Under the pieces are notes generated by a model that searched no databases, had not been told where the DNA came from, and saw only the letters and a program-made list of their open reading frames with translations. A DNA stretch of 41,225 nt from a virus. Below are positions 1,002 through 37,544 of the stretch, piece after piece; within the stretch, counting starts at the first letter, position 1; each line of letters begins with the position of its first letter. Position numbers and translations under genes: made by a program. The stretch is taken from positions 1 to 41,225 of the IMG/VR virus record IMGVR_UViG_3300013120_000344, one strand, 5' to 3'.

Positions 1002-1274
1002 ATGCAGTATCCTGAGACAGTGACGCGCGCATCTGCCTACGCGGCTCAGTGCCGCGAGGTAGAGGCGATATTTGGCCCGCCGGCGGACACGGTCGATGTT
1101 CATCGATGGACATTGGAGTGCCAGGAGTGCGGGCAGGCGATTGCGACGAGGTGGTACTGGGGCAGCTATGAGTTCGCCCTCGCTCAGTATCATTCTGTGA
1201 TTTCTCGGAGCGAGACCGTCTGGGACCGCGCGGCACACTGCGCCGAGTGTGCAGAAGATGATAGCTCGTCCTAA
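1002..1274 (+). CDS. Small CxxC protein, unknown function
   Basis: A 90-residue protein that I do not recognise. The ATG at 1002 is chosen because AAGGAG lies 6 nt upstream; a TTG at 972 lies inside the promoter and is unlikely to be used. Two CxxC pairs (CQEC near residue 41 and CAEC near residue 83) could bind a metal, with an aromatic WYWGSYEF stretch between them. It is the first gene of the rightward early operon, where phages usually keep host-takeover proteins; a specific role cannot be given. A pair of widely spaced CxxC motifs is compatible with a small zinc ribbon. Confidence 0.65.
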   Translation: MQYPETVTRASAYAAQCREVEAIFGPPADTVDVHRWTLECQECGQAIATRWYWGSYEFALAQYHSVISRSETVWDRAAHCAECAEDDSSS

Positions 1275-1295
1275 TGGATAGGCGCGAGGTAACTG

Positions 1296-1511
1296 ATGCA
1301 ACATCTCATTAACCGTAGCCGGCTCCGTGAGCTGGTGCGTGAGGCAGGATTCCGTCAGTGCTCTCCCGCCGCACTGGAGGAGCTGTGTACGATAGTCGAG
1401 CGGAGGCTGGTGCGCAACCTCGCGCGGTGTCGCCGGCTGGCTCCCGGCTGCACGCGTCTAGGGCCGTCAGAGGCGCAGTTTGTTGCGCACGGCGGTTCGA
1501 CCGTGCGATAG
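1296..1511 (+). CDS. Candidate histone-fold DNA-binding protein
   Basis: The 71-residue product aligns without gaps, by eye, to the archaeal histone pattern. It has a short helix (RLRELVREAG), a serine helix cap at residue 28, a long central helix (residues 29-48), an LA-then-loop junction, and a short strand and terminal helix (TRLGPSEAQFVA). Length (HMfB is 69 residues), the REAG/KDAG motif, the hydrophobic spacing and the arginine content all fit. The ATG at 1296 follows GCGAGGT. Overall identity to true histones is low and no structure prediction was possible, so the fold is an inference. If right, it would bind or wrap phage or host DNA early in infection. A plain helical DNA-binding protein is the alternative. 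Confidence 0.55.
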   Translation: MQHLINRSRLRELVREAGFRQCSPAALEELCTIVERRLVRNLARCRRLAPGCTRLGPSEAQFVAHGGSTVR

Positions 1512-1534: not shown

Positions 1535-1795
1535 ATGAACCGGTACGAAATCGTCATTAACAATGACTACGGGAGCTTCGCCCTCGACGGGTACGCAGCG
1601 TTAGTGCAGGGGGCACTCCACGATGTTGTATCCGATTACGACGGGCTGGGGAACACGATTGGATTCATCGATTTCGATTCTGACGGCCAGGCTATCCAGA
1701 TATTGGAGGAGGCTCTCGAGGATGACAATCGTGTCATCCAATATGCTGACCGGGGGAGGGTAGGGGCAACCGACCGAAATTCAGATAACAGTTGA
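1535..1795 (+). CDS. Small acidic protein, unknown
   Basis: The 86-residue product begins MNRYEIVINN after a strong AAGGAGAGAATC ribosome site. It has a predicted mixed alpha/beta pattern (YEIVINN strand, ALVQGALHDVV helix, TIGFIDFD strand, AIQILEEAL helix). This resembles a small ferredoxin-like fold, but no family is recognised. It sits 23 nt after the histone-like gene and is followed at once by another gene with the same GAAGGAGAGAAT leader, so the two are probably co-expressed. The last 12 residues are rich in polar residues and may be disordered. Confidence 0.7.
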   Translation: MNRYEIVINNDYGSFALDGYAALVQGALHDVVSDYDGLGNTIGFIDFDSDGQAIQILEEALEDDNRVIQYADRGRVGATDRNSDNS

Positions 1796-2937: not shown

Positions 2938-3306
2938 ATGTATGATGACAGCATAAAGCTGATAGAGATGCCGGAGCACGCTTCCATATCGGTTTGCGTA
3001 TATAACGAGAATGATGGCCTCTTCCAGCTTGGCGAGAGAATCAACGAGCGGTTCGAAGACGCCTACATGAATGGGTACAACTGGGATGCACTCATCAGTT
3101 TCTACTTCAAGAAAGTAGACCCGGACCTCATGCAGGGCGTCAAGACTGATCCGGAAGCAGGCATGTTCTCCGCGTACATGCCACACAGTTCCGAAAATCT
3201 AGACAGGATGAAGCGGTTCGAGTCACATGTGCGGCAGCTCGTGTCAGACGAAGCCGCGCTGATGAAGCTCATTGAAGACAACGTTGAGGAAATTGAATGG
3301 GATTGA
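2938..3306 (+). CDS. Imm51-like protein
   Basis: The 122-residue product resembles the immunity-protein-51 family. It has the N-terminal SISVCVY strand, the NGYNWDALISFYFKK block (residues 43-57), the DPEAGMFSAY motif (residues 69-78) and a helical C-terminus ending in acidic residues. The ATG at 2938 follows GGGAGGAGAATCC, an excellent ribosome site. Imm51 proteins are best known as partners of polymorphic toxins, but many stand alone. No toxin gene is adjacent, so a role in protecting against a host toxin or defence effector is only a guess. It lies directly after the long inverted repeat. Confidence 0.65.
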   Translation: MYDDSIKLIEMPEHASISVCVYNENDGLFQLGERINERFEDAYMNGYNWDALISFYFKKVDPDLMQGVKTDPEAGMFSAYMPHSSENLDRMKRFESHVRQLVSDEAALMKLIEDNVEEIEWD

Positions 3307-25337: not shown

Positions 25338-25889
25338 TCAGGTGCCCTGGTTTGCCGACTTGATCAGGAAGAAGAACTCGATAACAGGTGAGCTATCGGC
25401 TCCCTGCGTATCGAAATACGCAAAGACGAGCTTGCGCCCATCGGTGACGGGGACCAGCATTGACGCGCCGTAATGGTCTGTCACCGTCTTTGCCAGAATG
25501 CCGTTTGGCTGACCATCGAACACCACTAGGGCATTCAGATCGTAGTTCGTGGCGGCGATGATCGAGCTGGCATCTACGTCATCTTCGCCTTCCCAATCTT
25601 CGTAGTCGCACCAACCGACATCCATGTCCTGGTCCGCATGACCAGCGGTTGTCGCGTTGATGTGAAAGTCAAGCACCGTTTCGCCGTCCTCTACCACGAA
25701 CAGCGGCACCCAATAAACATCGTTTAGCTCATGGGCACCCAGCGCCTCCGCATTGTTGGACGGAGAAGCCGCGTGGTTGGTTGACGGGATGGTGAGCTTG
25801 ACGTGGACCCACTGCGCCGCTTCCTCCGAAGATTGGCGGGTGTGGATCGCGTTGCGGGCGGTCGCATAGACCTGCTGATAGTTAGCCAT
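25338..25889 (-). CDS. Head-associated protein, possible capsid decoration protein
   Basis: The 183-residue product follows the major capsid gene directly (14-nt gap) and starts behind GGGAGGTCAAGATC. It is beta-rich and acidic, with VYWVPLFVVEDGETVLDFHINATT, an acidic loop (DQDMDVGWCDYEDWEGEDDVD) and RKLVFAYFDTQGADSSPVIEFFFLIKS at the end. No family is recognised. Its place and high-expression setting suggest a head decoration or completion protein. Confidence 0.6.
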   Translation of the reverse strand: MANYQQVYATARNAIHTRQSSEEAAQWVHVKLTIPSTNHAASPSNNAEALGAHELNDVYWVPLFVVEDGETVLDFHINATTAGHADQDMDVGWCDYEDWEGEDDVDASSIIAATNYDLNALVVFDGQPNGILAKTVTDHYGASMLVPVTDGRKLVFAYFDTQGADSSPVIEFFFLIKSANQGT

Positions 25890-25903
25890 GATCTTGACCT
25901 CCC

Positions 25904-27001
25904 TTAGCTTACCGCTGCGCCACCGGTGGTGTAACAGGTGACGGTGGAATAGCTCTTGCTGTTGTAGATCGAGCGATTCATTCCACGGATCATCCCCGTG
26001 TCCACGACCGGCTTGTCGCCACGGTCATCAGTTTCTTCATGCCACTCGAACTCCTGCTCGTCGCCCGTGGCATCACCCTTCAGGAACAGTAGCGCCTGCG
26101 CGCCCATCAGCAGATTATGCGCGACGGCGGCGCTACTTGCACCTTCGTTCTTGCGCACAACTTTCGGATGGGAATACAGAATCAGTGGTCCGTAGGTGCC
26201 CAGGGCCTCGCCGAAGATCTTGTCCTGGCCTTTTTCCGTGCTCTGGAGAATCGCCTTCCAGGTGGCGCTGGTACGGAGTTGATACTCGCCCACCGAGTGC
26301 ATCAGCAGCACCCAACGCTCGCCCTTGTCCGTAATGATCGGGGGTGGTGCATCCTTCATGATGCGCATTTGGAAGATGATGTACTCCAGGAAGTCCACCG
26401 ATACATAATCGTCGCTGGAATTGGCGATAGTGTTTACGCCGGTGTTGTTGTCCGGATCGACGTACAACTTGTTCGCCGCGTTCTGTGCGGTGATCGTGTT
26501 GTTCCCTACCCAGGCGTTTCCCGCAGCAGGCACATCGTCAGTTGACAGCAACCAATCGCCGGTTTCATCACCCCGGTCGCCTGTGAGGTAAACGATCTTT
26601 TCCTCATCCAAGCGCCGGGCCCACCAGTTGGCGAGTTTCCCCATTGCAATGTCGCGCAAATCCCAGATCGTGCGCTTGCGGTCGATCTTCGACCCCAAGT
26701 TCACGCCATGCCGGAGCTGGTCGATCCAGACGTTCTGGCTGTATGCGACCAGTGCCTCCTCATTGCCCTTCAGGTTGTCGCTGCCCTTCGTGCCGGCACC
26801 GGTAAGCTGGGTAAACAGGTCACAACTGACCTGATCCCCCGACTGTCGTTCGAGTTCGTCGATCTCGTGTACGACGTTGTTGCCGTTTTTGTCGAAGAAG
26901 TTGCGACCGAAAAAGGATTGTTTGAAGGTTTCCTCGGCAAGGGCGACGGAATAGCGCTTCACGGCCTTGGCATCGCCAAGCCCAATGATAGTGCGGGCCA
27001 T
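25904..27001 (-). CDS. N4-gp56-family major capsid protein
   Basis: The 365-residue product matches the N4 gp56-type capsid pattern. This includes ETFKQSFFGRNFF, GDQVSCDLFTQLTGAGTKGSDNLKGNEEALVAYSQNVWIDQLRHGVNLGSKIDRKRT, WDLRDIAMGKLANWWARRLDEEK, and ITDKGERWVLLMHSVGEYQLRTS. These are HK97-fold capsid proteins. The start follows GAGGAGGGCTACAAC. A scaffold-like gene lies upstream and a hairpin-protected head gene downstream, completing a normal head module. Confidence 0.9.
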   Translation of the reverse strand: MARTIIGLGDAKAVKRYSVALAEETFKQSFFGRNFFDKNGNNVVHEIDELERQSGDQVSCDLFTQLTGAGTKGSDNLKGNEEALVAYSQNVWIDQLRHGVNLGSKIDRKRTIWDLRDIAMGKLANWWARRLDEEKIVYLTGDRGDETGDWLLSTDDVPAAGNAWVGNNTITAQNAANKLYVDPDNNTGVNTIANSSDDYVSVDFLEYIIFQMRIMKDAPPPIITDKGERWVLLMHSVGEYQLRTSATWKAILQSTEKGQDKIFGEALGTYGPLILYSHPKVVRKNEGASSAAVAHNLLMGAQALLFLKGDATGDEQEFEWHEETDDRGDKPVVDTGMIRGMNRSIYNSKSYSTVTCYTTGGAAVS

Positions 27002-27042
27002 GTTGTAGCCCTCCTCTTAGCGCAAAGAAGGGCCGCTTCCGT

Positions 27043-27885
27043 CTACGTTCGTCCGGTGTGTCGGTATTTCTTCTGCTGTTCTGGGGACAGGTTTTCGTAC
27101 GCCCTTCTGGCGGCTACTCCCGTGGAACGAGCGAGGGTCGGAGAAGCACCGGGCTCCCCGGGCTCACCGTCTACACCGGCAAGCGAGCGGAAGTGGCGTC
27201 CTTCCTTCACGTTGCCTTCAATTCGTTCGCCGGGGTCGGGTCTGTTTGGCGGCTCGTCGCCGTTACTTGAGTCTCCGCCCCGTTCCCGGGAGATCGTTTC
27301 ATCCACGTATTCCAACGCTTCGTCCACCGTTTTCCCCTCGTCGACTGCTTGATCGAACAGTGCTTCCGCCGCGCCACGCCACATCGGTTCCTTCATGTAG
27401 TCATGGCTTTCGGTAAACCGGTGCAGTTTCTGCGCGTCGGTTGCCCGTCGATCATCCTCGATGACCTTGGTTGCTTCGACCTTGGCCTTTTGGACGGCTC
27501 GGTGTTCGACGTACTTGAAGACCCGGGCCTGTTCCTTGGCCCCGGTTTGCCCGTATTCAACGAGATCTTCCTCGGACATCTTGTCCAGGTCTTCATAGGG
27601 GTTCGGTTCCGGATCCGGCTGCGGGGTGTCCTTTGATTCCAGTTGCTCGCGCAGTGCCTTGTTGGATTCCCGCAGGTCGTCGACTACGCGCATGGGGATA
27701 AAGTGCTCCCCATCCTTGGCCAACACGCCTTTCGGTTCCTTCTCCGGTTCTGGCGGTTCCTCGACAGGCGGCTCTTCCCTGGCGTCCGTTTCTTTCGGGG
27801 GCTTCTCCTGTGGGGGAGTCTCCTCCGGGGAGCCATCCTGAGCTGCCGCTAGGGCGTCCAGTTCTTCTTGCGTTGGGTCTGCCAT
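27043..27885 (-). CDS. Scaffolding-like protein
   Basis: The 280-residue product precedes the capsid gene. It is very acidic and proline-rich at the N-terminus (EETPPQEKPPKETDAREEPPVEEPPEPEKEP), then helical with a coiled-coil (DDLRESNKALREQLESK). A charged mid part and a basic C-terminus (VAARRAYENLSPEQQKKYRHTGRT) follow, resembling scaffold tails that grip the capsid protein. The ATG at 27885 follows AAAAGGAGATCAGATC. The length and charge layout suit a capsid scaffold; sequence similarity alone would not prove it. Confidence 0.75.
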   Translation of the reverse strand: MADPTQEELDALAAAQDGSPEETPPQEKPPKETDAREEPPVEEPPEPEKEPKGVLAKDGEHFIPMRVVDDLRESNKALREQLESKDTPQPDPEPNPYEDLDKMSEEDLVEYGQTGAKEQARVFKYVEHRAVQKAKVEATKVIEDDRRATDAQKLHRFTESHDYMKEPMWRGAAEALFDQAVDEGKTVDEALEYVDETISRERGGDSSNGDEPPNRPDPGERIEGNVKEGRHFRSLAGVDGEPGEPGASPTLARSTGVAARRAYENLSPEQQKKYRHTGRT

Positions 27886-27907
27886 GATCTGATCTCCTTT
27901 TGCCACC

Positions 27908-27973
27908 TGCCCGTGTCGCTGGGCTGCGAAAAAGGCGACGTGCCGTTGCGCTTGCCCGTGTCGCTGGGCTGCG
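27908..27973. repeat. Pair of 21-bp direct repeats in the scaffold leader
   Basis: TGCCCGTGTCGCTGGGCTGCG occurs at 27908-27928 and 27953-27973 (plus-strand reading), 45 bp apart. Both lie in the untranslated leader of the scaffold gene, next to a tRNA-like fold. The element could be a protein-binding repeat or a local duplication. Confidence 0.85.
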
Positions 27974-28014
27974 TAATAAGCGCGTTCGCGGCGCTATCCC
28001 TGCGCCCTGGGAAA

Positions 28015-28066
28015 GTCCTCTTCCGGGATCGAACCGGCTGACCCGCTCCTCCTGCGGGAAGGGGAC
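28015..28066 (-). ncRNA. tRNA-like element lacking a D-arm
   Basis: Read on the minus strand from 28066, just 2 nt after the portal TAG, the sequence folds into three helices. A 7-bp acceptor-like stem (GTCCCCT with AGAGGAC, one mismatch) closes it. An anticodon-like arm follows with a 5-bp perfect stem (CCCGC/GCGGG) and a 7-nt loop (AGGAGGA). After a 3-nt spacer comes a T-arm of four or five pairs with the canonical loop TTCGATC. There is no D-arm, no U33 and no CCA end. The loop also reads as a Shine-Dalgarno core. It may be a decayed tRNA, a tRNA mimic or an mRNA processing signal. Confidence 0.4.
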
Positions 28067-28068
28067 GA

Positions 28069-30027
28069 CTACGATCCGCCGACGGGACGTGCCACTGCTG
28101 GTTGATTCTGCACAGGAGCCGTGGCCACAGGACCGGGGCTGCCGCCCTGCGGGTTGGGGTTCTGTGCGACTATCGCACCGTACTTCTGTTGCACGGCCTT
28201 GATCCGGCGCATGACCTCGGCCTTGCGCGGGGGATCGCTCATTTCAACCACCAGATCCAGCAGTTCAAGTATCAACGGCTCGGGCATCCGGCTAACCATC
28301 GTCATGAGCTGCTCAGCGAACGCCTGCCTAACGCTCGCTCGGTATGCCTGCTCGTCGACCACTACGTCCACTCGGGCGGTCGGTATCGGATTAATCGGGT
28401 TGCCCCGATTATCCTCGTCGTTGAATACCAGTGTTTCTCCCGCGCCCTGCTCGTCAGTGATCGTCACCGCCTTCGGACCGTCGAATGTCTGCTGGATCAG
28501 AGCCATGCGCATTTCAGCAGCCAGTTTCAACGAGCGCCGATAGTTCTTGAACATCGCGCCCATAATAGTTGAGCCCTGCGCCTGCCGCAGCTCAATAGCG
28601 TAGCCGCTGCTGGCGTTGGTCGGTCTGCCCATCAGTTCCTCGACCGCACCCGTGTTCTCCCCTAGCAGGACGTTCGCCATCTCCATGACCTGCTGGTGGA
28701 GGTGCGCCTTGTCGGTGAACTCGTGGCGCTGGACCTTGTTCAGTCCCCCGGGGTTGAGCTTGCACACGGCGTCCGGCGCGGACAGATCGTCCGCCAGTTG
28801 ATTGATGTCCTCGGCGGCACCGGCTTCAATCCACGTCTGGACCGAACCGAGGATCCACATCATCTTCGAGAAATTCTTGTTCACCACATCCTGCGGGGCG
28901 ATCATGTTGCGGATAACCCCATACGGTTCGCCCGTGCGGGTCTTCCGCTTGCCCCAAAAAAGGGTGAATGGAAAGCGGTTGTGCTTGAACGGGCTGGCCG
29001 TGTCTTCCAGCAGGTTCGGCCCAGCGAAGAAGGCTCGTCTGACTTTCTTGATCGGTGCGCTCACGATCTCGACTGGACCGTCGTACATCATGCGCACTTG
29101 GTCTTCCGTCGGATTGTCCGGGTCGATCTCCTGTACGGCGCCCGTCAACTTGTCCTTCAGCAGCACCGCCTGTTCGTACGTCCGGTACCAGCACTCGACG
29201 ATCAGTACCCGATTCGTTGCTTTGTCGCGCCATTCGTCGGCTCGCCAGCCAACGTGCTCGCCCGTGTTGTCCCATGTGCCGTCGTTCAGGCTCGGGCGAT
29301 CTGCTTCCCATGATTTCTCGGGACGACTGCGCTCACCATGCGGCATGGACAGGCCTGCCGCGTGGTACAGCTCGTCACGATACTCGGGGAATAACACGAC
29401 CGCCGAGTCGACATCCATCCATTTCTGGCGGAAGATGTATCTAGCGTCTGAGGAATAATCGTAGCGCTTGCTTTTCTTGTCCAACCGGCAGTCCCGAAAG
29501 TCAACCCATTGCTCTAGGATCTCCTCGCGGGTTGGATCGGGGCTCAATGTCTGTTCGAGGATCCCCAGTCCACCAGCAAGCTGCGAGAACCAGCAGTCAC
29601 TGATCTCGTCGTCCGTGCTGTTCTGATCCTTCACGTACTTGTCGGCGGCATTCAGCAGGCGTGCCGTCTGTTCGTCGAATGCCCCTCGTGGACGGAACAC
29701 CATGTCGAATTTCGTTCGGCTTTCTGTTCCGACGAACATATCAATCGTCGGCTGGACGCGGTTGAATTCAATGGGGGGCTGATCACGGGATTCGAGTTCG
29801 AGGATTTCTTCTTCGGTAAGCTGGTCGCCATCGTAGTAGTCGTAGTCGCGCATCATCCGTTCATACCAGTGCTGGTAGAACTCGTCGGCTTCCAACCACC
29901 ATGCGCGAAGCTGGCGAATCAGGCGAGACTTACGCCCCTGACCATCAACACCAGATTGTATCCCGAGCGCCGACTCGCTTGTCGTGTACGTGCGGGTTCG
30001 GGCATCCTGTCTATCAGTTCTTGGCAC
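28069..30027 (-). CDS. P22-like portal protein
   Basis: The 652-residue product matches the P22-type portal family. It has DYDYYDGDQLTEEEILELESRDQPPIEFNRVQPTIDMFVGTESRTK near residue 60-105, EQWVDFRDCRLDKKSKRYD, a long RFPFTLFWGKRKTRTGEPYGVIRNMIAPQDVVNKNFSKMMW block, and a helical C-terminal crown ending in a proline/glutamine tail. It forms the dodecameric portal for DNA entry. The first possible start is GTG 30027, with no ribosome site, but a perfect -35 promoter ends 11 nt upstream. The mRNA therefore may begin 0-5 nt before the GTG. Confidence 0.88.
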   Translation of the reverse strand: MPRTDRQDARTRTYTTSESALGIQSGVDGQGRKSRLIRQLRAWWLEADEFYQHWYERMMRDYDYYDGDQLTEEEILELESRDQPPIEFNRVQPTIDMFVGTESRTKFDMVFRPRGAFDEQTARLLNAADKYVKDQNSTDDEISDCWFSQLAGGLGILEQTLSPDPTREEILEQWVDFRDCRLDKKSKRYDYSSDARYIFRQKWMDVDSAVVLFPEYRDELYHAAGLSMPHGERSRPEKSWEADRPSLNDGTWDNTGEHVGWRADEWRDKATNRVLIVECWYRTYEQAVLLKDKLTGAVQEIDPDNPTEDQVRMMYDGPVEIVSAPIKKVRRAFFAGPNLLEDTASPFKHNRFPFTLFWGKRKTRTGEPYGVIRNMIAPQDVVNKNFSKMMWILGSVQTWIEAGAAEDINQLADDLSAPDAVCKLNPGGLNKVQRHEFTDKAHLHQQVMEMANVLLGENTGAVEELMGRPTNASSGYAIELRQAQGSTIMGAMFKNYRRSLKLAAEMRMALIQQTFDGPKAVTITDEQGAGETLVFNDEDNRGNPINPIPTARVDVVVDEQAYRASVRQAFAEQLMTMVSRMPEPLILELLDLVVEMSDPPRKAEVMRRIKAVQQKYGAIVAQNPNPQGGSPGPVATAPVQNQPAVARPVGGS

Positions 30028-30038
30028 TATGGGGGAAT

Positions 30039-30067
30039 GTTATACGAAAGATTTGCCGGTTTGTCAA
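30039..30067 (-). promoter_or_regulatory. Strong sigma-70 promoter before the portal gene
   Basis: The minus strand reads TTGACA (30067-30062), exactly 17 nt, then TATAAC (30044-30039). The GTG start of the portal is 11 nt beyond the -10, so the transcript would have almost no leader. The -35 is part of TACTTGACA, the same 9-mer as in the terminase promoter. It gives the head genes an independent start. Confidence 0.8.
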
Positions 30068-30078
30068 GTATTGTTTTC

Positions 30079-31602
30079 CTATCGCACCTTCCAGCTCTTG
30101 CTTTTGCGCTTCTTCATCAAGTTGTTCGTCATGTGGTCACGATAGCTGACAAATGAATGGCGATGGCGGTATCCATACCGCGCGGAGTCCATCGTATCGT
30201 CGTAATCCTTGAGCACTTTCCCCGCGTCATTCCGTTGATAGACACGGATTTCCTCCCACCATTGCTGGCAGGTGGTGAAGACCTTGATCTTGCCCGACAT
30301 CAAACCTTCTAGGACATCCATGATCCCCGCCTCAACCTGATTATCCGCAGGCTGGCAATAAATTCCTAGTTGGGCGTACTGATCGTGCAGTGTACTCCCC
30401 CCGCCTTCCTGCCGTTCGGCCTCACCCGACGGATCGGCGAAGATCGGGATGTAGCGGGTACCCCTGAGTAGGCTGGCAATGATTGGGATCGCTGTCTTAT
30501 TGGCTCTCCACGTCTGGTACAGGTAGCAGATACCGGTGTTCGGATCCATCGCCCACCAGGAGATAGCTGCGGGATGCACCCAGCCGTGGTCTAGGCCGAT
30601 GCCGCGTTTGTAATGATCTGGGATTTCAAACGGTTCCACCGCATAATGGGATTCGGCCACTGGGTAGACCATACCGCTGCCCAATACCGGTCGTCCGTGC
30701 TCGCGGGCTTCCCGTTCATGTTCTGGGGTTTCCCTGCGCAGTTCGGACATTTCATCCGGCGGTAGATACGGGTTGTCTTCCCAACTGGCGACCACATAGC
30801 CGTTTTTCTCGCTCTCTTCATCCCCGGGATTGAGGAACAGCCGGCACACCTTGGTCATGCCGTCCAGCGGTGTAAAAGTCATGAGCATGATTCCGCCGGG
30901 GCTGATCGTCCCGTCGGCTTTGCGCGTTCCGACTGTGCGCATCGTGCACTCACGGTAGATGTCGTACGGCGGCTCCTCGTCCAGCCAGATCACGTCCACC
31001 TTGTCGGTCTCGAAGGACTTGCGCTCCTGTTCGTAGCTTTTGAAGACAATCGTGGTTTCCTTGTCCGTGTCGCGCCAGCGGATATATGCCCGGGCGATGC
31101 CGTCCGGCACGTTCTGCATCCGGATGATTCGCTTGATCGCATGGGCGGGGATGAAGCCCTCGCCATATCTGCCGGGTGGACCCATCAGGCGCTGCTGCAC
31201 GCCCTCGATCAGTTTCTCCTTCGACTTGGCGGCGACCCAGATCAGCGTCGGTTTCTCGAACCGATAGCCGGGCCATTCCGCAGGATATTCGCCCGTTGCA
31301 TGGAACGAGATCTCAACGCCGCCGACGACGGTTTTCCCAACACGGTTCCCACCGAAGAACGCCCGGCGCTTCTTCAGTTTGCCTAGTGCGAAGAATTCTA
31401 TCTGTTTTTCGTGGGGTTTGAACCGCTGAATGTAGTTCTGGCGTAACGCCTTCTCTTTGGCCTTCAGCAGAAGAAGCAACCGAGCGCGGGGGTCATCACC
31501 CGCCTCGCGCTGGATCAGGCGCTGGGCTTCACGTACCGTCGATTGCTGGTCCAGCTCTGGCGACTGGGCATAGACGATATTCCGTGGCAGTGATCTGGCC
31601 AT
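30079..31602 (-). CDS. terL: Terminase large subunit
   Basis: The 507-residue product (from ATG 31602) has an ATPase with Walker A GGNRVGKT (84-91) and Walker B VDVIWLDEE (202-210), and an RNase H-like nuclease with D338 (GLDHGW), D390 (FADPSG), and D468, D469 or D472 (DDTMDSARYG). It packages DNA into the prohead through the portal and cuts concatemers. The longer frame to 31656 would run back through its promoter. TTGACA-N17-GATATT ends 6 nt before the ATG and no ribosome site is seen, so the mRNA is probably leaderless. The small subunit is not adjacent. Confidence 0.9.
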   Translation of the reverse strand: MARSLPRNIVYAQSPELDQQSTVREAQRLIQREAGDDPRARLLLLLKAKEKALRQNYIQRFKPHEKQIEFFALGKLKKRRAFFGGNRVGKTVVGGVEISFHATGEYPAEWPGYRFEKPTLIWVAAKSKEKLIEGVQQRLMGPPGRYGEGFIPAHAIKRIIRMQNVPDGIARAYIRWRDTDKETTIVFKSYEQERKSFETDKVDVIWLDEEPPYDIYRECTMRTVGTRKADGTISPGGIMLMTFTPLDGMTKVCRLFLNPGDEESEKNGYVVASWEDNPYLPPDEMSELRRETPEHEREAREHGRPVLGSGMVYPVAESHYAVEPFEIPDHYKRGIGLDHGWVHPAAISWWAMDPNTGICYLYQTWRANKTAIPIIASLLRGTRYIPIFADPSGEAERQEGGGSTLHDQYAQLGIYCQPADNQVEAGIMDVLEGLMSGKIKVFTTCQQWWEEIRVYQRNDAGKVLKDYDDTMDSARYGYRHRHSFVSYRDHMTNNLMKKRKSKSWKVR

Positions 31603-31608
31603 CGGCTG

Positions 31609-31637
31609 AATATCTGCCTGTATGGGGAGAATGTCAA
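31609..31637 (-). promoter_or_regulatory. Terminase promoter placed for a leaderless mRNA
   Basis: The minus strand reads TTGACA (31637-31632), a 17-nt spacer, and GATATT (31614-31609), followed by six bases (CAGCCG) and the ATG at 31602. The expected +1 falls on the A of ATG. TACTTGACA is shared with the portal promoter. Confidence 0.7.
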
Positions 31638-31654
31638 GTAAAAGCCACGTCTCC

Positions 31655-31677
31655 AACTACGTAGTTCATCGTTGCCT
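31655..31677 (+). repeat. Half-site resembling the right arm of an attC site
   Basis: AACTACGTAGTT (31655-31666) is a perfect 12-bp palindrome and runs into CATCGTTGCCT (31667-31677). The same (A)TCGTTGSC string ends the palindromic sites at 34550 and 35239. It marks the left border of the methyltransferase island, just upstream of the terminase promoter. On its own it is only a half-site. Confidence 0.4.
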
Positions 31678-31711
31678 ACTAGCGACTCGCTGCATACAAT
31701 GAGCGTCGGTT

Positions 31712-31803
31712 TACCCCGGCCCCACTTGTCCCCGCAGGGCCGGGTGAGTACTATTGATCTCGCATGGACGCTGTGTTAGTCCGGCATTCGGCTCTCCTTT
31801 CGC
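31712..31803 (-). repeat. Island border repeat, copy 1
   Basis: A 40-bp core at 31763-31802 matches 36419-36458 with one mismatch. Similarity continues through a GC-rich hairpin (CCCGGCCC with GGGCCGGG, about 31714-31745). On the minus strand the core holds AAAGGAGAGCCGA-ATG then two codons and TAA (peptide MPD), then ATG-CGA-GAT-CAA-TAG. The two copies lie in the same orientation and bracket the methyltransferase island. The end of the HNH fragment runs through this copy. Confidence 0.8.
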
Positions 31804-31999
31804 GTTGCAGGTTGAGGTTTATCGCTTCAGCCCATTCCATCGCGCCCGTTACCGGGCGCGGCTGATGATTTGCGGCCCTGCGGGTAGGAAACGCCGGCGA
31901 ACCCTCGCAGCGGTGGCCGGCGCGTTGCAGTATCTGCCGGCGCACAGCCCACCAATCAGCCGGGTACCTGTCCCTGTTATCCGGTTTGATCGGTGTCAC
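31751..31999 (-). pseudogene. Truncated HNH endonuclease
   Basis: The first half (RYPADWWAVRRQILQRAGHRCEGSPAFPTRRAANHQPRPVTGA) is the familiar N-terminus of phage HNH endonucleases (WWAVRR...AGHRCEGSP...NGQPHPVTGS). The catalytic VAHLDH...LRALCQRCH part is missing. At the break lies a 7-bp stem with a GTAA loop (31842-31859), after which the frame runs into unrelated EWAEAINLNLQRERR sequence and the border repeat. GTG 31999 overlaps the small membrane ORF. It is probably an inactive remnant of a homing-type nuclease gene. Confidence 0.65.
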
Positions 32000-32075
32000 C
32001 CCACTCGGCGCTCCCGTGGTTCAGGATGCTGATGAACAGCAGGATCAGTAGCGCAATGAAGCACTTGTACAGCAT
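31977..32075 (-). CDS. 32-residue membrane peptide
   Basis: ATG 32075 follows GGAGGACAACAT, a perfect ribosome site. The peptide MLYKCFIALLILLFISILNHG... has one strong transmembrane helix (about 4-18) and a polar C-terminus (SAEWGDTDQTG). The overlap with neighbouring frames and the short size make it uncertain, but site and hydrophobicity argue for translation. It may be a small toxin-like or lysis-modulating peptide. It overlaps the start of the HNH fragment. Confidence 0.55.
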   Translation of the reverse strand: MLYKCFIALLILLFISILNHGSAEWGDTDQTG

Positions 32076-32250
32076 ATGTTGTCCTCCGTACTGCGCGGCT
32101 CAGGTGCCGCATGCTTTCCGCCGCTAGTGTTACCGACCGCCCCTGGTGTACGGCAATGAATTTCGCGCGACACGAGGGGCACCATCGCAGGCCGTTGTAG
32201 CTCTCGGACACCGGGTTCCGACAGCAGCCGCATCGCGGACGCCATGCCAT
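31996..32250 (-). CDS. Possible zinc-ribbon protein
   Basis: The 84-residue frame reads MAWRPRCGCCRNPVSESYNGLRWCPSCRAKF, with two CxxC pairs spaced like a zinc ribbon, then a basic helix (SMRHLSRAVRRTTYAV). Its 5' part overlaps the stub of a methyltransferase gene in another frame, and its 3' part covers the membrane-peptide ORF. The first 45 residues look genuine; the remainder may be read-through. No ribosome site is convincing. Confidence 0.45.
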   Translation of the reverse strand: MAWRPRCGCCRNPVSESYNGLRWCPSCRAKFIAVHQGRSVTLAAESMRHLSRAVRRTTYAVQVLHCATDPAVHQHPEPRERRVG

Positions 32251-32285
32251 ATCGTCACGGCCTCATCCTGATAGTACGGCTTCAC
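32130..32285 (-). pseudogene. N-terminal stub of a sixth DNA methyltransferase
   Basis: AAGGAGG lies 7 nt before GTG 32285, and the frame starts VKPYYQDEAVTIWHG. This is the same start seen in the neighbouring methyltransferases (YENENVTLWHGDCRE at 35170, FADDDVTLYHGDCRD in the 36089 gene). After WHG the similarity ends and 36 unrelated residues follow to a stop; no DPPY or FxGxG motif remains. A deletion has removed the body of the gene and left its leader and 15 codons. Confidence 0.6.
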
Positions 32286-32297
32286 TTCATATCCTCC

Positions 32298-32350
32298 TTA
32301 CAACTCTCCGCTGCACCGGACGCTACGCGCCGGTGAGCTAGTTGTTATGC
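32298..32350 (+). repeat. attC-like recombination site upstream of the methyltransferase stub
   Basis: Plus-strand layout: TTACAAC box (32298-32304), CACCGG (32314-32319), one extrahelical A (32320), CGC-tac-GCG, CCGGTG (32330-32335), then GTTGTTA/GTTATGC boxes (32341-32350). The arm order and the single unpaired A on the left arm copy the top strand of integron attC sites such as that of aadA. Conserved outer boxes are imperfect. Confidence 0.5.
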
Positions 32351-33001
32351 AGATTGGGGCACTTGGTCTCCCCAAGCATCCCAACCGTCAGTTTTTCGCC
32401 TTGCGAATAATTCTATACGGGGCAAATTGCCAAAAATTTTCTCTATTCTCGCCCTTGCCTCGTCTGGCTTCCTACTATGTTCGGTTCTTTCGGCATCTAT
32501 TATTTGGTAAACGTTATTTGCTATTTTATGTTTTGCCATATTGCCCTTTGTCGCTATCAAACAAATTTCAGCGTTCTTCATTGTCCACGCTCCAACATTT
32601 GCACAAAGTTTTCCCCTACTGCTCCTTTTTACCCAAATAAAAGCAATAGACCTATATTTGAATCCCCATAATTTAATTACGGCAAGGGCTTCCTCTAAAT
32701 GAGAATCAGTAGTCCACATAAACAAAGCCGCATTGGGTTCGGCAATTTGCCTAACATTTAGCTCCCCAATCTCTTTGGTTGTTAGCGTATTATATTTTTC
32801 GGAAACATTTTGTGGCTTTCTGGTTTGTTTTCTTTTAGGGTATGTTTCCTGATACATTCCACGGCTATTATATTTCCACGGCGGATCAGCGTAAATAATA
32901 TTATACTTCTTGCCGTGCCCCAACTGCATAACAAGCGTATCAAGCGGACTTATTACTTCTTTACCGCTTTTTACGTCTGTTATTTTTTTATCATTACTCA
33001 A
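32345..33001 (-). CDS. MT-A70-type adenine-N6 DNA methyltransferase
   Basis: The 218-residue product has DPPW (39-42, IIYADPPWKYNSRG), AALFMWTTDSHLEEALAVIKLWGFKYRSIAFIWVK and the ending LPRIELFARRKTDGWDAWGDQ, all hallmarks of the MT-A70 family found in phages. It would methylate adenine N6 in host and phage DNA. The gene is visibly AT-rich with many AAA/ATT codons, unlike its GC-rich neighbours, so it arrived recently by transfer. The likely start is TTG 33001, behind AGGAAAATAAT. It is the last intact methyltransferase before the terminase. Confidence 0.85.
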   Translation of the reverse strand: MSNDKKITDVKSGKEVISPLDTLVMQLGHGKKYNIIYADPPWKYNSRGMYQETYPKRKQTRKPQNVSEKYNTLTTKEIGELNVRQIAEPNAALFMWTTDSHLEEALAVIKLWGFKYRSIAFIWVKRSSRGKLCANVGAWTMKNAEICLIATKGNMAKHKIANNVYQIIDAERTEHSRKPDEARARIEKIFGNLPRIELFARRKTDGWDAWGDQVPQSA

Positions 33002-33036
33002 AATTATTTTCCTATTTTATTAAGCCGCTTATACGC

Positions 33037-33049
33037 AACTCCGTTCTGC
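33037..33049 (+). repeat. AACTCCGTT border motif
   Basis: CAACTCCGTTCTG lies between the MT-A70 gene and the next methyltransferase. AACTCCGTT recurs at 33820 and CTCCGTT at 36488, matching the right arm of attC sites (AACTC...CGTT). There is no palindrome here, so only a decayed half-site is suggested. Confidence 0.3.
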
Positions 33050-33052
33050 ATA

Positions 33053-33811
33053 CTAAAACAGATTCCGTTGTCGAAGCCTGTTCGCGATGCTCTCACAATA
33101 CGATTCCTCTATCTCTATTCCGATTGCACGCCGTCCGGCATCCATCGCAGCGCGTAACGTAGTGCCACTTCCCGCGAATGGGTCCAACACGGTCCCACCC
33201 TCCGGCGTCGTTGGTAATATCAAGTCCGCCAGCAGCCCCAACGGTTTTTCTACTGGATGTACGCGGTCACTCGATGGCGTGGCCGTGTGCTTCAACACGT
33301 CGGCACGCAGTTTCCCGTCCTCGCAGAACTCCGACGTATTCCATCGGGCCGCAATTATCAATTCGTGCTGGTTGCGCCAAACGCGGCCCAACCCGACATG
33401 CCCCTTGTCCCACACCAACGCCTTGCAGAAATCGAACCGCCCGTACATTTCCGGGTAAAACACGGGGTAGCTTTCGTGATTGCAAAACGTGATGCAATGT
33501 CCCGTTGGCTTAATGGCTGGCGTTGTTGCGTCCATGAACGCGGACCAGAATGTCTGCAATATGCTCGTGTCGCCCCACTTCCTTTGCCAGTTGACGCGAC
33601 TTTGGTAGTGTGCGGCTGGCATGAAAAACGGCGGATCGGTCAGAACGCAATCAACGGAGTGTTTCCGAATGGTCGGCATGATGTCGCGCCAATCCCCGTG
33701 ATAGATGGCGATGCCGTCTTGCTCGAAAAATGCAGAACAAACGGATGAACACGGAGCGGCTAACGCCGTTTCCGTTCCACCGTTCGCTGTGTTGGTTGCG
33801 TCTGTCGTCAT
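33053..33811 (-). CDS. DNA methyltransferase (beta class), 252 residues
   Basis: The order is motif IV DPPF (59-62, CVLTDPPFFMP) first and motif I DPFAGSG (210-216, TVLDPFAGSGTT) last, with GIEIEESYCESIANRL as motif II. This is the beta-class N6-adenine/N4-cytosine arrangement. A GDWRD start motif precedes DPPF. The middle (WGDTSILQTFWSAFMDATTPAIKPTGHCITFCNHE) would be target recognition. No restriction enzyme is near. The ATG at 33811 has no strong ribosome site, as the island border sits just upstream. Confidence 0.85.
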   Translation of the reverse strand: MTTDATNTANGGTETALAAPCSSVCSAFFEQDGIAIYHGDWRDIMPTIRKHSVDCVLTDPPFFMPAAHYQSRVNWQRKWGDTSILQTFWSAFMDATTPAIKPTGHCITFCNHESYPVFYPEMYGRFDFCKALVWDKGHVGLGRVWRNQHELIIAARWNTSEFCEDGKLRADVLKHTATPSSDRVHPVEKPLGLLADLILPTTPEGGTVLDPFAGSGTTLRAAMDAGRRAIGIEIEESYCESIANRLRQRNLF

Positions 33812-33817
33812 GCGTCA

Positions 33818-33861
33818 TCAACTCCGTTGGTCCGCCGCCCGGTTATCCTTGACCGTTGTGC
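33818..33861 (+). repeat. attC-like border between two methyltransferases
   Basis: TCAACTCCGTTGGTC (33818-33832) is followed by CCGCCGCCCGGTTATCC and CGTTGTGC (33854-33861). The same order of words (GTTGG-N2-CG...CCGGG-TTATCC...CGTT) is seen at 36104-36138. The two borders are related, but this one is short of a clear stem. Confidence 0.4.
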
Positions 33862-34466
33862 GTATCGAACTCCAGCGGCAAGCGCCCCTGCCGCAGTTCC
33901 TTCTCCAGCCGTTCCCGCGCTATCTCGAAGTAGCGGGCGTCCTTCTCAATCCCGATGAACTTGCGCCCCGTGCGGATGCAGGCGATCCCAGTAGTGCCGG
34001 AGCCCATGAACGGGTCGCATACCGTCCCCTTCGTCTTGTTCACAAGGCGCTGAATCAGCCGTATTGGTTTCTGGCACGGGTGGTTCAGGAACGTGTCGCC
34101 GTTCAACGTGGCGTTCATTTCCGAGTCAATCACGGCATGACGGAACACCAGTCCGGTCGTGCCGCCGCGCAGTTCATAGACCTCCTCGTATTGTTCGGCG
34201 TTTTTGCCGATGTTCCTGTTTGCCTTGCTCCACACATGCCGAGCAGTCCACTCCAATGGGAACAGCCCACCAGACCAACACCAGAAGCCATGCTTGGCAG
34301 TCAGGTCGCCCAGCGCGGCAAGGTCGGAATATTCCCATGCGTAGTCGTCATATCCCTTGTACGGCGGATCAGTGACAACGACATCGCACTCAATCGGCAG
34401 CACGTCCCGGCAGTCACAGTGGATGATCGTCACAGAGTCGGAAAGACGCACAACAATCGGCTTCAC
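33843..34466 (-). CDS. DNA methyltransferase (beta class), 207 residues
   Basis: GTG 34466 is used: GGAGGACATGTAAG precedes it, and the same GGAGGAYATG leader precedes the methyltransferase stub at 32285. Motif IV is DPPY (33-36, VVVTDPPYKGYDDYAWEYSD) and motif I DPFMGSG (151-157), followed by GIEKDARYFEIARERL. An N-terminal VTIIHCDCRDVLP marks the same family as its neighbours. It should methylate a different short sequence; a target cannot be read. A nested 9-bp hairpin (34485-34513) lies just upstream of its leader. Confidence 0.85.
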   Translation of the reverse strand: MKPIVVRLSDSVTIIHCDCRDVLPIECDVVVTDPPYKGYDDYAWEYSDLAALGDLTAKHGFWCWSGGLFPLEWTARHVWSKANRNIGKNAEQYEEVYELRGGTTGLVFRHAVIDSEMNATLNGDTFLNHPCQKPIRLIQRLVNKTKGTVCDPFMGSGTTGIACIRTGRKFIGIEKDARYFEIARERLEKELRQGRLPLEFDTHNGQG

Positions 34467-35170
34467 CTTACATGTCCTCCGCTTCGCTCCGGCCATGAAG
34501 GTGAGCCGGAGCGTTCAGAGGACGGCTTACAGCCGCCTCTGAACTCATCGTTGGCAGTACCAAAGTCGAACCGTCCCTGCGCGTGCCATCGCTCAAGGCG
34601 TTTGCAGGCCACCTCGACCCACCGTTCGTCAATCTCTATGCCTATCGCCTTGCGCCCGGTCTCAATCGCGGCAATCAGCGTCGTTCCGCTCCCGGCGTAG
34701 GGGTCAATCACGGTCGAGCCCTTCACCCGTTCCATGAGCCTCTGCACCAGCGCAAGCGGCTTCTGTGTCGGATGTGGTGTCAGCTCTCCCTTACACGCGG
34801 CAAAGTTTGGCATGATCGCCGCCACGCGGAACACCTCGCATTTTGCCCCGCATCCGTAGGACAGAATACGCTCGTACTGGTGGCCAGCCACATTGCCCGT
34901 TACGCTTCGCGGATGGATCGGAACAGACTTGTGCCAGACGTGGACGGCATCCGGCTCTCCACACGGAAAGTCTGCAATGCATGGCCAGAACAACAAGGCC
35001 GGAGTGGAAGGGATCAATCGGCGCAACATGGGCCACACGGAATCAGCCGGAAAGAGGTCTTCTCGTCCAGGGTACGGCGGATCGGACACCACGGCATCGG
35101 CCTTGCCGTTCCACTCCCTGCAGTCGCCGTGCCACAGCGTCACGTTCTCGTTTTCGTATGCAATCTTCAT
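34463..35170 (-). CDS. DNA methyltransferase (beta class), 235 residues
   Basis: Starts MKIAYENENVTLWHGDCREW behind TCGGAGGACGC. Motif IV is DPPY (30-33, VVSDPPYPGRE), then LLFWPCIADFPCGEPDAVHVWHKS, and motif I DPYAGSG with GIEIDERWVEVACKRLERWHAQGRFDF. The last 30 residues (NDEFRGGCKPSSERSG...GGHVR) are encoded by the attC-like palindrome and the next gene's leader, so the natural enzyme probably ended earlier and the frame now reads through the site. Stop overlaps the start of the next gene (34466). Confidence 0.85.
   Translation of the reverse strand: MKIAYENENVTLWHGDCREWNGKADAVVSDPPYPGREDLFPADSVWPMLRRLIPSTPALLFWPCIADFPCGEPDAVHVWHKSVPIHPRSVTGNVAGHQYERILSYGCGAKCEVFRVAAIMPNFAACKGELTPHPTQKPLALVQRLMERVKGSTVIDPYAGSGTTLIAAIETGRKAIGIEIDERWVEVACKRLERWHAQGRFDFGTANDEFRGGCKPSSERSGSPSWPERSGGHVR
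34485..34513 (-). promoter_or_regulatory. 9-bp hairpin in a methyltransferase leader
   Basis: CGCTCCGGC and GCCGGAGCG pair perfectly around an 11-nt loop, immediately before the AAGCGGAGGAC ribosome site of the 34466 gene and directly after the attC-like stem. It could control translation or be part of the recombination site. Confidence 0.6.
34505..34556 (+). repeat. attC-like site between methyltransferases
   Basis: GTTCAGAGG (34513-34521), extrahelical A (34522), CGGCT-tac-AGCCG (34523-34535), CCTCTGAAC (34536-34544), then TCATC and box GTTGGCA (34550-34556). The stem has 14 pairs and one unpaired A on the left arm; the right arm reads AACTCATCGTTGG, like AACTCAAGCGTTAG of aadA attC. The left outer box is degenerate. 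The 35170 gene reads on through this site. Confidence 0.6.
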
Positions 35171-35186
35171 GCGTCCTCCGAAGAAC

Positions 35187-35245
35187 TGCCAACCAAGTGT
35201 TCGACAGGACGCGGAATACCGCGCCTGTCAACTCAATCGTTGCCA
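35187..35245 (+). repeat. Best-formed attC-like site
   Basis: Plus strand: TGCCAAC (35187-35193), CAAGT, GTTC, GACAGG (35203-35208), extrahelical A (35209), CGCGG-aata-CCGCG (35210-35223), CCTGTC (35224-35229), AACTCAATC, GTTGCCA (35239-35245). This follows the aadA attC top strand almost element by element. Outer boxes are inverted relative to one another but deviate from strict GTTRRRY. Confidence 0.65.
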
Positions 35246-35352
35246 ATCCAGCAGTCCCAACAAATATCAACCCCACAGACGACGCACGCTCCATCGACAC
35301 CGATCTTTACGGCCCCGCCGCATTGTACGCATTGCCCTTTCTTCGCGTTCAT
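35233..35352 (-). CDS. 39-residue cysteine-rich zinc protein
   Basis: The peptide MNAKKGQCVQCGGAVKIGVDGACVVCGVDICWDCWIGND has three CxxC pairs (C8/C11, C23/C26, C31/C34) and would fold around one or two zinc ions. ATG 35352 follows AAAGGGGGCGAGAC, an acceptable ribosome site. It lies between two methyltransferases and overlaps the attC-like site at its 3' end. Such micro-proteins are common in phage cassettes, with unknown roles. Confidence 0.6.
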   Translation of the reverse strand: MNAKKGQCVQCGGAVKIGVDGACVVCGVDICWDCWIGND

Positions 35353-35369
35353 GTCTCGCCCCCTTTCCC

Positions 35370-36089
35370 CTATATGCTGATTGACGTTCCCGCGCATTCG
35401 GATGGACGACGGCGGGCGGCCCCGAAACAAGGCCCCTCGTCCGGGTGCAAGAGCCGGAGGCCCCGCCGCCGCCGCGCCGCGTCCAAAGTTGTCCCGCTCC
35501 CAGCAAACGGATCTAACACGGTCCCGCCTTCATCCACCAGTTTCAAGATCGGTGTGTATGCAACCGGCTGGCCCCACTTGTGCAAGCATTGGCTTTTGGC
35601 CCACGCCTTCGGGCTGCGCTTCAAATCGTCATCGACAATCCCGCGTTTCTGCCACCTCCCTTTCCGAAACCACAGCACGGGCTTGAAATTCACCTTTACG
35701 CCAAATCCGTGCATGATCGGATTGATGCCGCCCGCGTTCGGTTGGATGCAAAGCCAATGGTACGTCAAATGCCGCCGCAGTGCGTCTATCACTCGCGGCA
35801 CTTGGTAGTGGCCGCAATACGTAAACAGGCTTGCACCGTCTTTCATCGCTGGCGGGGCAAAATCGGCCAGCAGATCCCACACGTGATCGAACTCCTTTGG
35901 ATATGGCGGATCGGTCAACACAAGATCGACGGGTTCCAACAGAGGCAAGATGTCGCGACAGTCGCCGTGGTACAACGTCACATCATCATCTGCGAAATAC
36001 GGATCAGGCAGATAACAATGCGATGAACACCGAGCCACTACCGTCTCGGCGGTTCCGGCGTCTTTCGCGTTGTCGGCGTCAATCGTCAT
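35370..36089 (-). CDS. DNA methyltransferase (beta class) with a degenerate C-terminus
   Basis: The 239-residue product has VTLYHGDCRD, DPPY (60-63, LVLTDPPYPKEFDHVWDLL), an LTYHWLCIQPNAGG recognition part, and motif I DPFAGSGTT. After motif I, where GIEI-x-YxxxAxxRL is expected, it reads ARRRRGLRLLHPDEGPCFGAARRRPSECAGTSISI; the acidic SAM-ribose contact is not clear, as if two indels had shifted the frame and back. ATG 36089 follows AGGAAAGACGTTGA. Activity is uncertain. Confidence 0.75.
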   Translation of the reverse strand: MTIDADNAKDAGTAETVVARCSSHCYLPDPYFADDDVTLYHGDCRDILPLLEPVDLVLTDPPYPKEFDHVWDLLADFAPPAMKDGASLFTYCGHYQVPRVIDALRRHLTYHWLCIQPNAGGINPIMHGFGVKVNFKPVLWFRKGRWQKRGIVDDDLKRSPKAWAKSQCLHKWGQPVAYTPILKLVDEGGTVLDPFAGSGTTLDAARRRRGLRLLHPDEGPCFGAARRRPSECAGTSISI

Positions 36090-36138
36090 TCAACGTCTTT
36101 CCTGTTGGCCCGTGGCCGGGTTATCCTGGGCGTTAGGC
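36088..36138 (+). repeat. attC-like site with consensus outer boxes
   Basis: ATTCAAC (36088-36094) fits RYYYAAC and GTTAGGC (36132-36138) fits GTTRRRY, the two outer boxes that define integron attC sites. The inner part (GGCCCG-TGGC-CGGGTT, 36107-36122) forms a short stem with wobbles. It lies directly at the 5' end of the last methyltransferase gene. Confidence 0.5.
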
Positions 36139-36345
36139 GGAATCACGCGAGAACCTATTGCCGCGCTCAGGGTCTTCAAAATCGCCACCATCCCGCCAAT
36201 TGTCATAGGCTCTATCGCCGGAATCGCGGTCATCGTCGTATCGCCTGCATCCATCATAATCACCGTTTCGCCACGCCTCACTCCTGTCTTCTGGCGACCA
36301 TTCTCGGTAAGGATCTCTGCTTAGCAGTTTGGCTTTGTCGCTCAT
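36133..36345 (-). CDS. Highly charged 70-residue protein
   Basis: The product (MSDKAKLLSRDPYREWSPEDRSEAWRNGDYDGCRRYDDDRDSGDRAYDNWRDGGDFEDPERGNRFSRDSA) is built almost entirely of D, R, G, Y and N and is probably disordered. ATG 36345 follows GCAGGAGCCAGAA. Low-complexity acidic-basic proteins of this type appear near phage anti-restriction genes, but no function is known. The gene ends inside the attC-like site. Confidence 0.6.
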   Translation of the reverse strand: MSDKAKLLSRDPYREWSPEDRSEAWRNGDYDGCRRYDDDRDSGDRAYDNWRDGGDFEDPERGNRFSRDSA

Positions 36346-36370
36346 TTCTGGCTCCTGCGTTACCCTTGTC

Positions 36371-36459
36371 GTTATCCCGGCCCCGCGCCACACAGGGCCG
36401 GGTGTGCTATGGGTCTCTCATGGACGCTGTGTTAATCCGGCATTCGGCTCTCCTTTCGT
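36371..36459 (-). repeat. Island border repeat, copy 2
   Basis: Near-identical to copy 1 at 31712-31803 over the 40-bp core (36419-36458, one mismatch) and similar through the CCCGGCCC/GGGCCGGG hairpin (about 36376-36402). On the minus strand it again holds a strong ribosome site followed by ATG-CCG-GAT-TAA, then ATG-AGA-GAC-CCA-TAG. It lies in the leader of the 36345 gene. Together the copies flank about 4.7 kb of DNA. Confidence 0.8.
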
Positions 36460-36492
36460 GTCAGGTTTTTAGCGACAGTCATGATTGCTCCG

Positions 36493-36696
36493 TTATATGC
36501 CGATCGATGTTCCTGCATTTGATGTAAAATCAGAGTAATGGTCCCCTTCTGGGCATAGATGTCTTATCCATACCATTGACCAGCCCGACTCCTTTCGAAA
36601 GGCACAAGCGAGACGCTTCGCTGTTTGTTTCTCAGGAGTTTGTAATACTCGCCGTGGCGGTCCCCATAGCGACCGTCTTCCCCATACGACCCACAT
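36493..36696 (-). CDS. 67-residue protein, unknown
   Basis: The frame starts at ATG 36696, 9 nt after AAAGGAG, and reads MWVVWGRRSLWGPPRRVLQT...GWSMVWIRHLCPEGDHYSDFTSNAGTSIGI. It is basic and tryptophan-rich. The last residues (NAGTSIGI-stop) and their DNA match the end of the 36089 methyltransferase (CAGTSISI-stop), a hint of recombination at the 3' ends. A second short frame with an ATG nearer the ribosome site (22 codons) competes, so the call is tentative. Confidence 0.45.
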   Translation of the reverse strand: MWVVWGRRSLWGPPRRVLQTPEKQTAKRLACAFRKESGWSMVWIRHLCPEGDHYSDFTSNAGTSIGI

Positions 36697-36702
36697 TTTG
36701 CA

Positions 36703-37035
36703 TCACTCCTTTTGCGGCCCGCCGGTGCTGCCTGCGCTCAGCGATCCGGCGCGGGTTTCAACTGCGGGCCATTCGAGCGCATCGACCTCGTCTACAACTG
36801 CCTGCGCCCACTCCGCGAGCCTTGCTGCGTCATGCTGAAACTCAACATCAGCCGACGTGTGTGCTCGCACCATCGCCTCCACCCGCTCACGGCGGATTCG
36901 GGAGTTGACTCCGTTCCAAAAATGGGCTGCCATTTCATTCATACATTGCGGACAACGTAATCGCGGTTCGTGTACACCATCGAGTAAAACTTTTTCGGGC
37001 GTACCCCCGCACTTCCCGCACTTGACGCACTTCAT
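36703..37035 (-). CDS. Lar-like zinc-ribbon protein, possible restriction alleviation
   Basis: The 110-residue product begins MKCVKCGKCGGTPEKVLLDGVHEPRLRCPQCMNEMAAHFWNGVNSR. Two CxxC pairs and a following A-x-FWNxxxxR helix match the layout of Lar-family restriction-alleviation proteins and similar phage zinc ribbons. The C-terminal half is helical and acidic. It starts on an ATGA overlap with the upstream gene. Its position beside the methyltransferases supports an anti-restriction role, but this is inferred from pattern and context. Confidence 0.65.
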   Translation of the reverse strand: MKCVKCGKCGGTPEKVLLDGVHEPRLRCPQCMNEMAAHFWNGVNSRIRRERVEAMVRAHTSADVEFQHDAARLAEWAQAVVDEVDALEWPAVETRAGSLSAGSTGGPQKE

Positions 37036-37352
37036 GATTCAGCCTCTATGCCATCTTGGGATGTTTGTTCTGGTGACCCAAGTCGCCTCGGTGGGGTTGC
37101 CCCGAAATGTGCGATCTTCGTTCCCTGCGGATCGGTAATGATTACGCCCCAGATATGCTGCGGGAAGTAGTCGCGCACGAACTGGTACATGGCGTACGCG
37201 GCCTCCTCGTATGATTTGCATTGTGCCTGATACTTTTCTGCACAACCTTTTCGTGGGGCGATGACCAAGTAGTTCCTCTGTTCCTCCCTGCTGCCGTGTG
37301 TACCGTACCAGCCGAGGCCAAACCAATTCCAGAGGCAACCACCGATATTCAT
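37032..37352 (-). CDS. Unknown 106-residue protein
   Basis: The product MNIGGCLWNWFGLGWYGTHGSREEQRNYLVIAPRKGCAEKYQAQCKSYEEAAYAMYQFVRDYFPQHIWGVIITDPQGTKIAHFGATP has a beta-alpha-beta look: YLVIAPRKG strand, SYEEAAYAMYQFVRDYF helix, WGVIITDPQGTKIAHF strand pair. No family is recognised. Both ends overlap neighbours by ATGA, so it is part of one translationally coupled string. The N-terminal aromatic cluster is unusual. Confidence 0.65.
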   Translation of the reverse strand: MNIGGCLWNWFGLGWYGTHGSREEQRNYLVIAPRKGCAEKYQAQCKSYEEAAYAMYQFVRDYFPQHIWGVIITDPQGTKIAHFGATPPRRLGSPEQTSQDGIEAES

Positions 37353-37544
37353 AGTTTCAGCTTCAGATTTGTCGGCGGCTTACCCGCCCGCCGGTACTCC
37401 CTGACATCCAGGTCCATGCGCAGCTCGGCCAGCACGCTATTCTCGTTTCCTCTGTACATGGGCTCCGGCATGGCTTCCAGTTCTTGCCACAGCCGGATTT
37501 TTCAGCTCCGCCAGATAGGACGTGTGGCGTTCGAGGCGCTTCAC
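37349..37544 (-). CDS. Small helical protein split by a one-base frameshift
   Basis: GTG 37544 overlaps the upstream stop (GTGA) and reads VKRLERHTSYLAELK. In the run of five A (37498-37502 on the minus strand) coding passes to another frame: IRLWQELEAMPEPMYRGNENSVLAELRMDLDVREYRRAGKPPTNLKLKL, ending on an ATGA overlap with the next gene. With four A the two parts join into one protein of about 64 residues resembling small phage YRGNEN-type proteins. This is either a sequencing or assembly error in a homopolymer, a real mutation, or a programmed shift. Confidence 0.6.

Follow-up and report, generated by a model that had tools for sequence, protein, structure and literature searches.

Does a tailed phage carry the gene of a minimal histone in its early region? 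This question is raised by P0001, a short open reading frame (ORF) in a virus record of 41,225 bases, the whole of which is called the window here. The preliminary description had read P0001 as an early phage gene with a histone-fold pattern, based on an alignment by eye with the archaeal histone core.

The locus and its surroundings

In the leftward block of the window, a P22-like portal and the large subunit of a terminase are encoded; a second block, running rightward, has a RuvC-like resolvase, a RecE-like exonuclease and a Bet/RecT annealing protein at its end. These two blocks identify the window as a tailed phage. P0001 sits close to where the rightward block begins, and the term early gene follows from this gene order and is used here in that presumptive sense. 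The ORF is present as previously described, and its length agrees with that of a minimal histone. The features at the locus are as follows.

1002..1274, + strand: upstream neighbour, 90 aa, with the cysteine pairs CQEC and CAEC; a possible zinc ribbon (weak, under the cut-off), with no significant family
1286..1290, + strand: Shine-Dalgarno-like (SD) GAGGT, a few bases 5' of the ATG of P0001
1296..1511, + strand: P0001, orphan ORF of 71 aa, Arg-rich (13 R, 0 K, 0 D)
1535..1795, + strand: downstream neighbour, 86 aa, with a strong SD; no family given

The early neighbours of P0001 are nearly as isolated as P0001 itself, with the exception of a DUF7659 protein (2377-2781). In a synteny test, no P0001-like frame was found in the 12 viral relatives of the DUF7659 protein, and none of the relative loci examined encodes the other neighbours of P0001 either. 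Rfam gave no match to an RNA element in the P0001 region. Elsewhere in the early region, the protein encoded at 2938-3306 (+) matches Pfam Imm51 (immunity protein 51) with an E-value of 3.1e-24; it is an immunity-like orphan encoded by a phage. Tandem ORFs at 32345-36089 (-) have DNA methyltransferase-like DPP[YWF] motifs, as seen in their translations. The segment at 25350-39196 is 99.96% identical over 13.8 kb to another contig (L107, IMGVR_UViG_3300009320_000320), indicating the same virus assembled twice; this second copy stops short of the P0001 region.

Is P0001 a gene?

P0001 might not be a gene at all but a frame that stays open by chance in the space between two early genes, its histone look having been selected from very many frames. 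We scored its codons with a usage table trained on the 15 large ORFs of the window and used 93 ORFs lying inside large genes as spurious controls. The score of P0001 was -0.096 per codon, a value that 28% of the spurious ORFs reach or exceed, whereas among 701 windows of 71 codons from real genes just 0.9% are as low. The composition is also odd for this phage, with 18% Arg, no Lys, no Asp and 4 Cys (5.6%). Such an Arg-rich, Lys-free and Cys-rich make-up is also typical of out-of-frame GC-rich DNA. Together with the failure to find relatives among phage records, IMG/VR and GTDB (see below), these features favour the chance frame.

Other features argue against it. P0001 begins with ATG behind an SD-like site, a combination found at the first start in none of the 93 spurious ORFs and at any start in 1 of them. 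The ORF slots without overlap into the gap between two well-formed genes on the same strand, and frame 0 has the top codon score among the six frames. Its Glu content of 8.5% is close to the real-gene mean (8.6%) rather than the spurious-ORF mean (2.3%), and at least 8% Glu occurs in just 1/93 spurious ORFs. From this mixed evidence we consider it likely, albeit not certain, that P0001 is a real gene, and a chance frame to be unlikely.

Histone likeness is confined to the N-terminal half

The two halves of the predicted protein were compared separately with known histones, using the gapless register of the preliminary description.

1314..1403, + strand: residues 7-36, predicted α1 (7-16), then a loop and the long helix up to its middle; resembles histones beyond shuffles
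1404..1493, + strand: residues 37-66, remainder of the long helix (to 48), loop and, at 57-60, a short and weak helix; histone signal absent

Residues 7-36 aligned with HMfB, HMfA, HPhA, HstA and Bd0055 with p values of 0.0003 or less (4,000 shuffles), which bears out the first part of the alignment. The second part, for which an LA-loop-TR-x-x-x-S-E-A ending had been claimed, did not hold, as residues 37-66, tested against each of six histones in this register and with shifts of up to four positions, gave p values of 0.26-0.87 relative to their own shuffles. When the register was left free, the C-terminal half still gave 0.64-0.96 against archaeal histones, whereas the C halves of two positive controls, Bd0055 and a viral histone from another contig (L082, see below), passed the same test with p values of 0.008 or less. 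Over the full length, the best gapless BLOSUM62 scores of P0001 were -4 for HMfB (in a different register), -9 for HMfA, +6 for HPhA, +15 for HstA and +19 for Bd0055.

R10, R19, K53 and T54 of HMfB, which we take to be DNA contacts of archaeal histones, correspond to E12, Q21, L55 and G56 of P0001 in the fixed register of the half test. The RxTxxxxD motif in the C-terminal half is among the most strongly conserved parts of histones (PMC11390915); its positions read R54, G56 and Q61 in P0001, and the motif is absent. A histone C half shifted into another frame was also considered and rejected, since the other frames contain no RKT...D-like stretch by eye and their codon usage is no better.

With home-made profiles, for which 77 distinct histones of bacterial type and four archaeal ones were used, P0001 scored 6.8 and 6.3 bits, and 9.1 bits when the profiles were joined. 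These values were reached by 3, 8 and 0 of 20,000 shuffles and by 0, 4 and 0 of 9,403 ORFs taken from all six frames of other loci, respectively, but P0001 had been chosen for its histone look from an uncertain number of screened frames and folds, so that such low chances are not readable as significance. The HMMER E-value of the joined profile was 1.8 in that search, with an aligned stretch reaching to about residue 40 and an envelope to residue 47.

Searches for relatives

P0001 had no match in Pfam, PHROGs or PADLOC, and tblastn against 50,697 phage records returned nothing up to an E-value of 10. No relatives came up when IMG/VR and GTDB genomes were scanned by pattern. Up to an E-value of 10, a PDB sequence search gave no histone, and PF00808 did not match. 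The sole match in a blind NCBIfam scan was the archaeal histone model NF043032 (E=0.09, residues 8-36), at 13.2 bits, which is far below the curated cut-off of 50. With HMfB and Bd0055 as queries, no histone was found in the annotated phage collection.

Predicted structure

The AlphaFold2 model of P0001, predicted from the single sequence, has helices at residues 7-16, 24-48 and 57-60 with a mean pLDDT of 72.5; other models were as low as 51, and pLDDT was below 50 at residues 58-70. The list of PDB matches obtained with Foldseek consisted almost entirely of histones and histone-fold proteins, the best E-value being 1.8. VIA-align gave Z scores of up to 4.8 over 54 residues, values at which chance matches of helical models are common. 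A BFVD fold search gave no convincing match. The helical hydrophobic moment was within the shuffle range, as 17% of shuffles reach the same value.

To judge how far such a model can be trusted, the viral histone of L082 serves as a control. Folded likewise, it was predicted as a two-helix hairpin with a pLDDT of 90, and there was no histone among the 50 listed PDB matches of this model. A true viral histone was thus misfolded, and on this one control a structure predicted from a single sequence cannot be relied on to decide the matter. In the structure check proposed earlier, the nearest PDB folds (all with E-values of 1.8 or more) lean to histones, but the model fell short of a confident structure. 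We take the histone-like model of P0001 as a hint only.

Comparison with known histones

The preliminary description had regarded histones in bacterial viruses as hardly known, a statement that is now outdated because a phage histone category from tailed-phage metagenomes was published in 2024 (Schwab et al., PMC11390915; example A0A2E7QIQ9). These proteins, of the α3 family, have an α3 histone fold at the N-terminus and a helical tetramerisation domain at the C-terminus, and RxTxxxxD is missing (PMC11390915). P0001 resembles them in its small histone-fold-like layout, its tailed-phage origin and the missing motif. Unlike them, it ends at residue 71 without a C-terminal helical domain, and its fold is a low-confidence prediction.

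Bd0055 (HBb; PDB 8CMP, 8FVX) is a bacterial dimer histone that binds DNA end-on (PMC10627809) or, according to a further report, bends it (PMC11317129). Residues 7-36 of P0001 align with Bd0055 without gaps through S-x-[VL]-[KR]-x-L-[IV]-[KR]-E-x-G...S. However, P0001 lacks RKTxxxD and the α1 lysines, its C half is unmatched, and the E-value is not significant. With the archaeal-type histones HMfB, HPhA and HstA (PF00808, NF043032), it shares the start R-x-L-[IV]-R-x-A-G ... S-x-x-A, but again not the C half, and neither family model recognises it at its cut-off.

Two other contigs classed as viral, L082 (1986-2180; IMGVR_UViG_3300024265_000170) and L083 (1229-1393; IMGVR_UViG_3300009788_000342), each encode a 64-aa Bd0055-like histone with 53% identity to Bd0055 and an intact RKTVMARD. 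In L082, the histone gene comes after an AAA ATPase-like ORF. These histones are of the bacterial-dimer type and do not have the C-terminal domain of the published phage histones.

What is P0001?

A true but divergent histone would have the layout α1-L1-α2-L2-short α3 and, like the published phage histones, would do without RxTxxxxD. The match of residues 7-36 to both archaeal and bacterial histones, the joined-profile score, the single NCBIfam match and the AlphaFold2 model with its short third helix and its histone neighbours in the PDB all point in this direction. We nevertheless consider such a fold improbable, even more so than a chance frame, because true divergent histones have signal in the C half where P0001 has none, PF00808 does not detect it, the fold matches are poor and come from models of low and variable confidence, the presumed DNA contacts are replaced, and the C-terminal helical domain of the published phage histones is missing. 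The same low probability applies jointly to this fold and a handshake dimer that would bind phage or host DNA via L1/L2 and arginines. Slightly more doubtful still is a stand-alone single-domain phage histone fold, lacking both RxTxxxxD and a tetramerisation tail, that would act early on phage or host DNA.

The explanation we favour over both alternatives, at roughly even probability, is that P0001 is a small, basic, helical early accessory protein of a tailed phage, translated but an orphan without family. It is supported by the gene-like signals (ATG and SD, gap filling, the best frame and Glu content), by the predicted helices, by the histone signal being confined to residues 7-36, by the lack of any family or relative, and by the strongly positive net charge (13 Arg against 6 Glu and no Asp). 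The codon score within the range of spurious ORFs, the unexceptional hydrophobic moment and the composition shared with out-of-frame GC-rich DNA count against it. As an orphan helical protein, P0001 would be translated and expressed early to give a small basic product in which a loop joins a short helix to a long one. Two copies may pair through the long helix, and the Arg-rich surface could serve to bind nucleic acid or else a host protein of acidic character. On this reading, the histone resemblance is a local helix-loop-helix likeness and not a sign of membership in the histone family. Because the N half resembles histones and the C half, the most conserved part in histones, does not, the evidence so far does not warrant the name phage histone for P0001.

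P0001 also offers a caution, as the control with a true viral histone indicates that likeness over half the length combined with a single-sequence fold is insufficient. As things stand, P0001 is another orphan early phage ORF. Were it a true histone, the small set of known phage histones would gain a minimal form, with a bearing on how bacterial viruses handle DNA.
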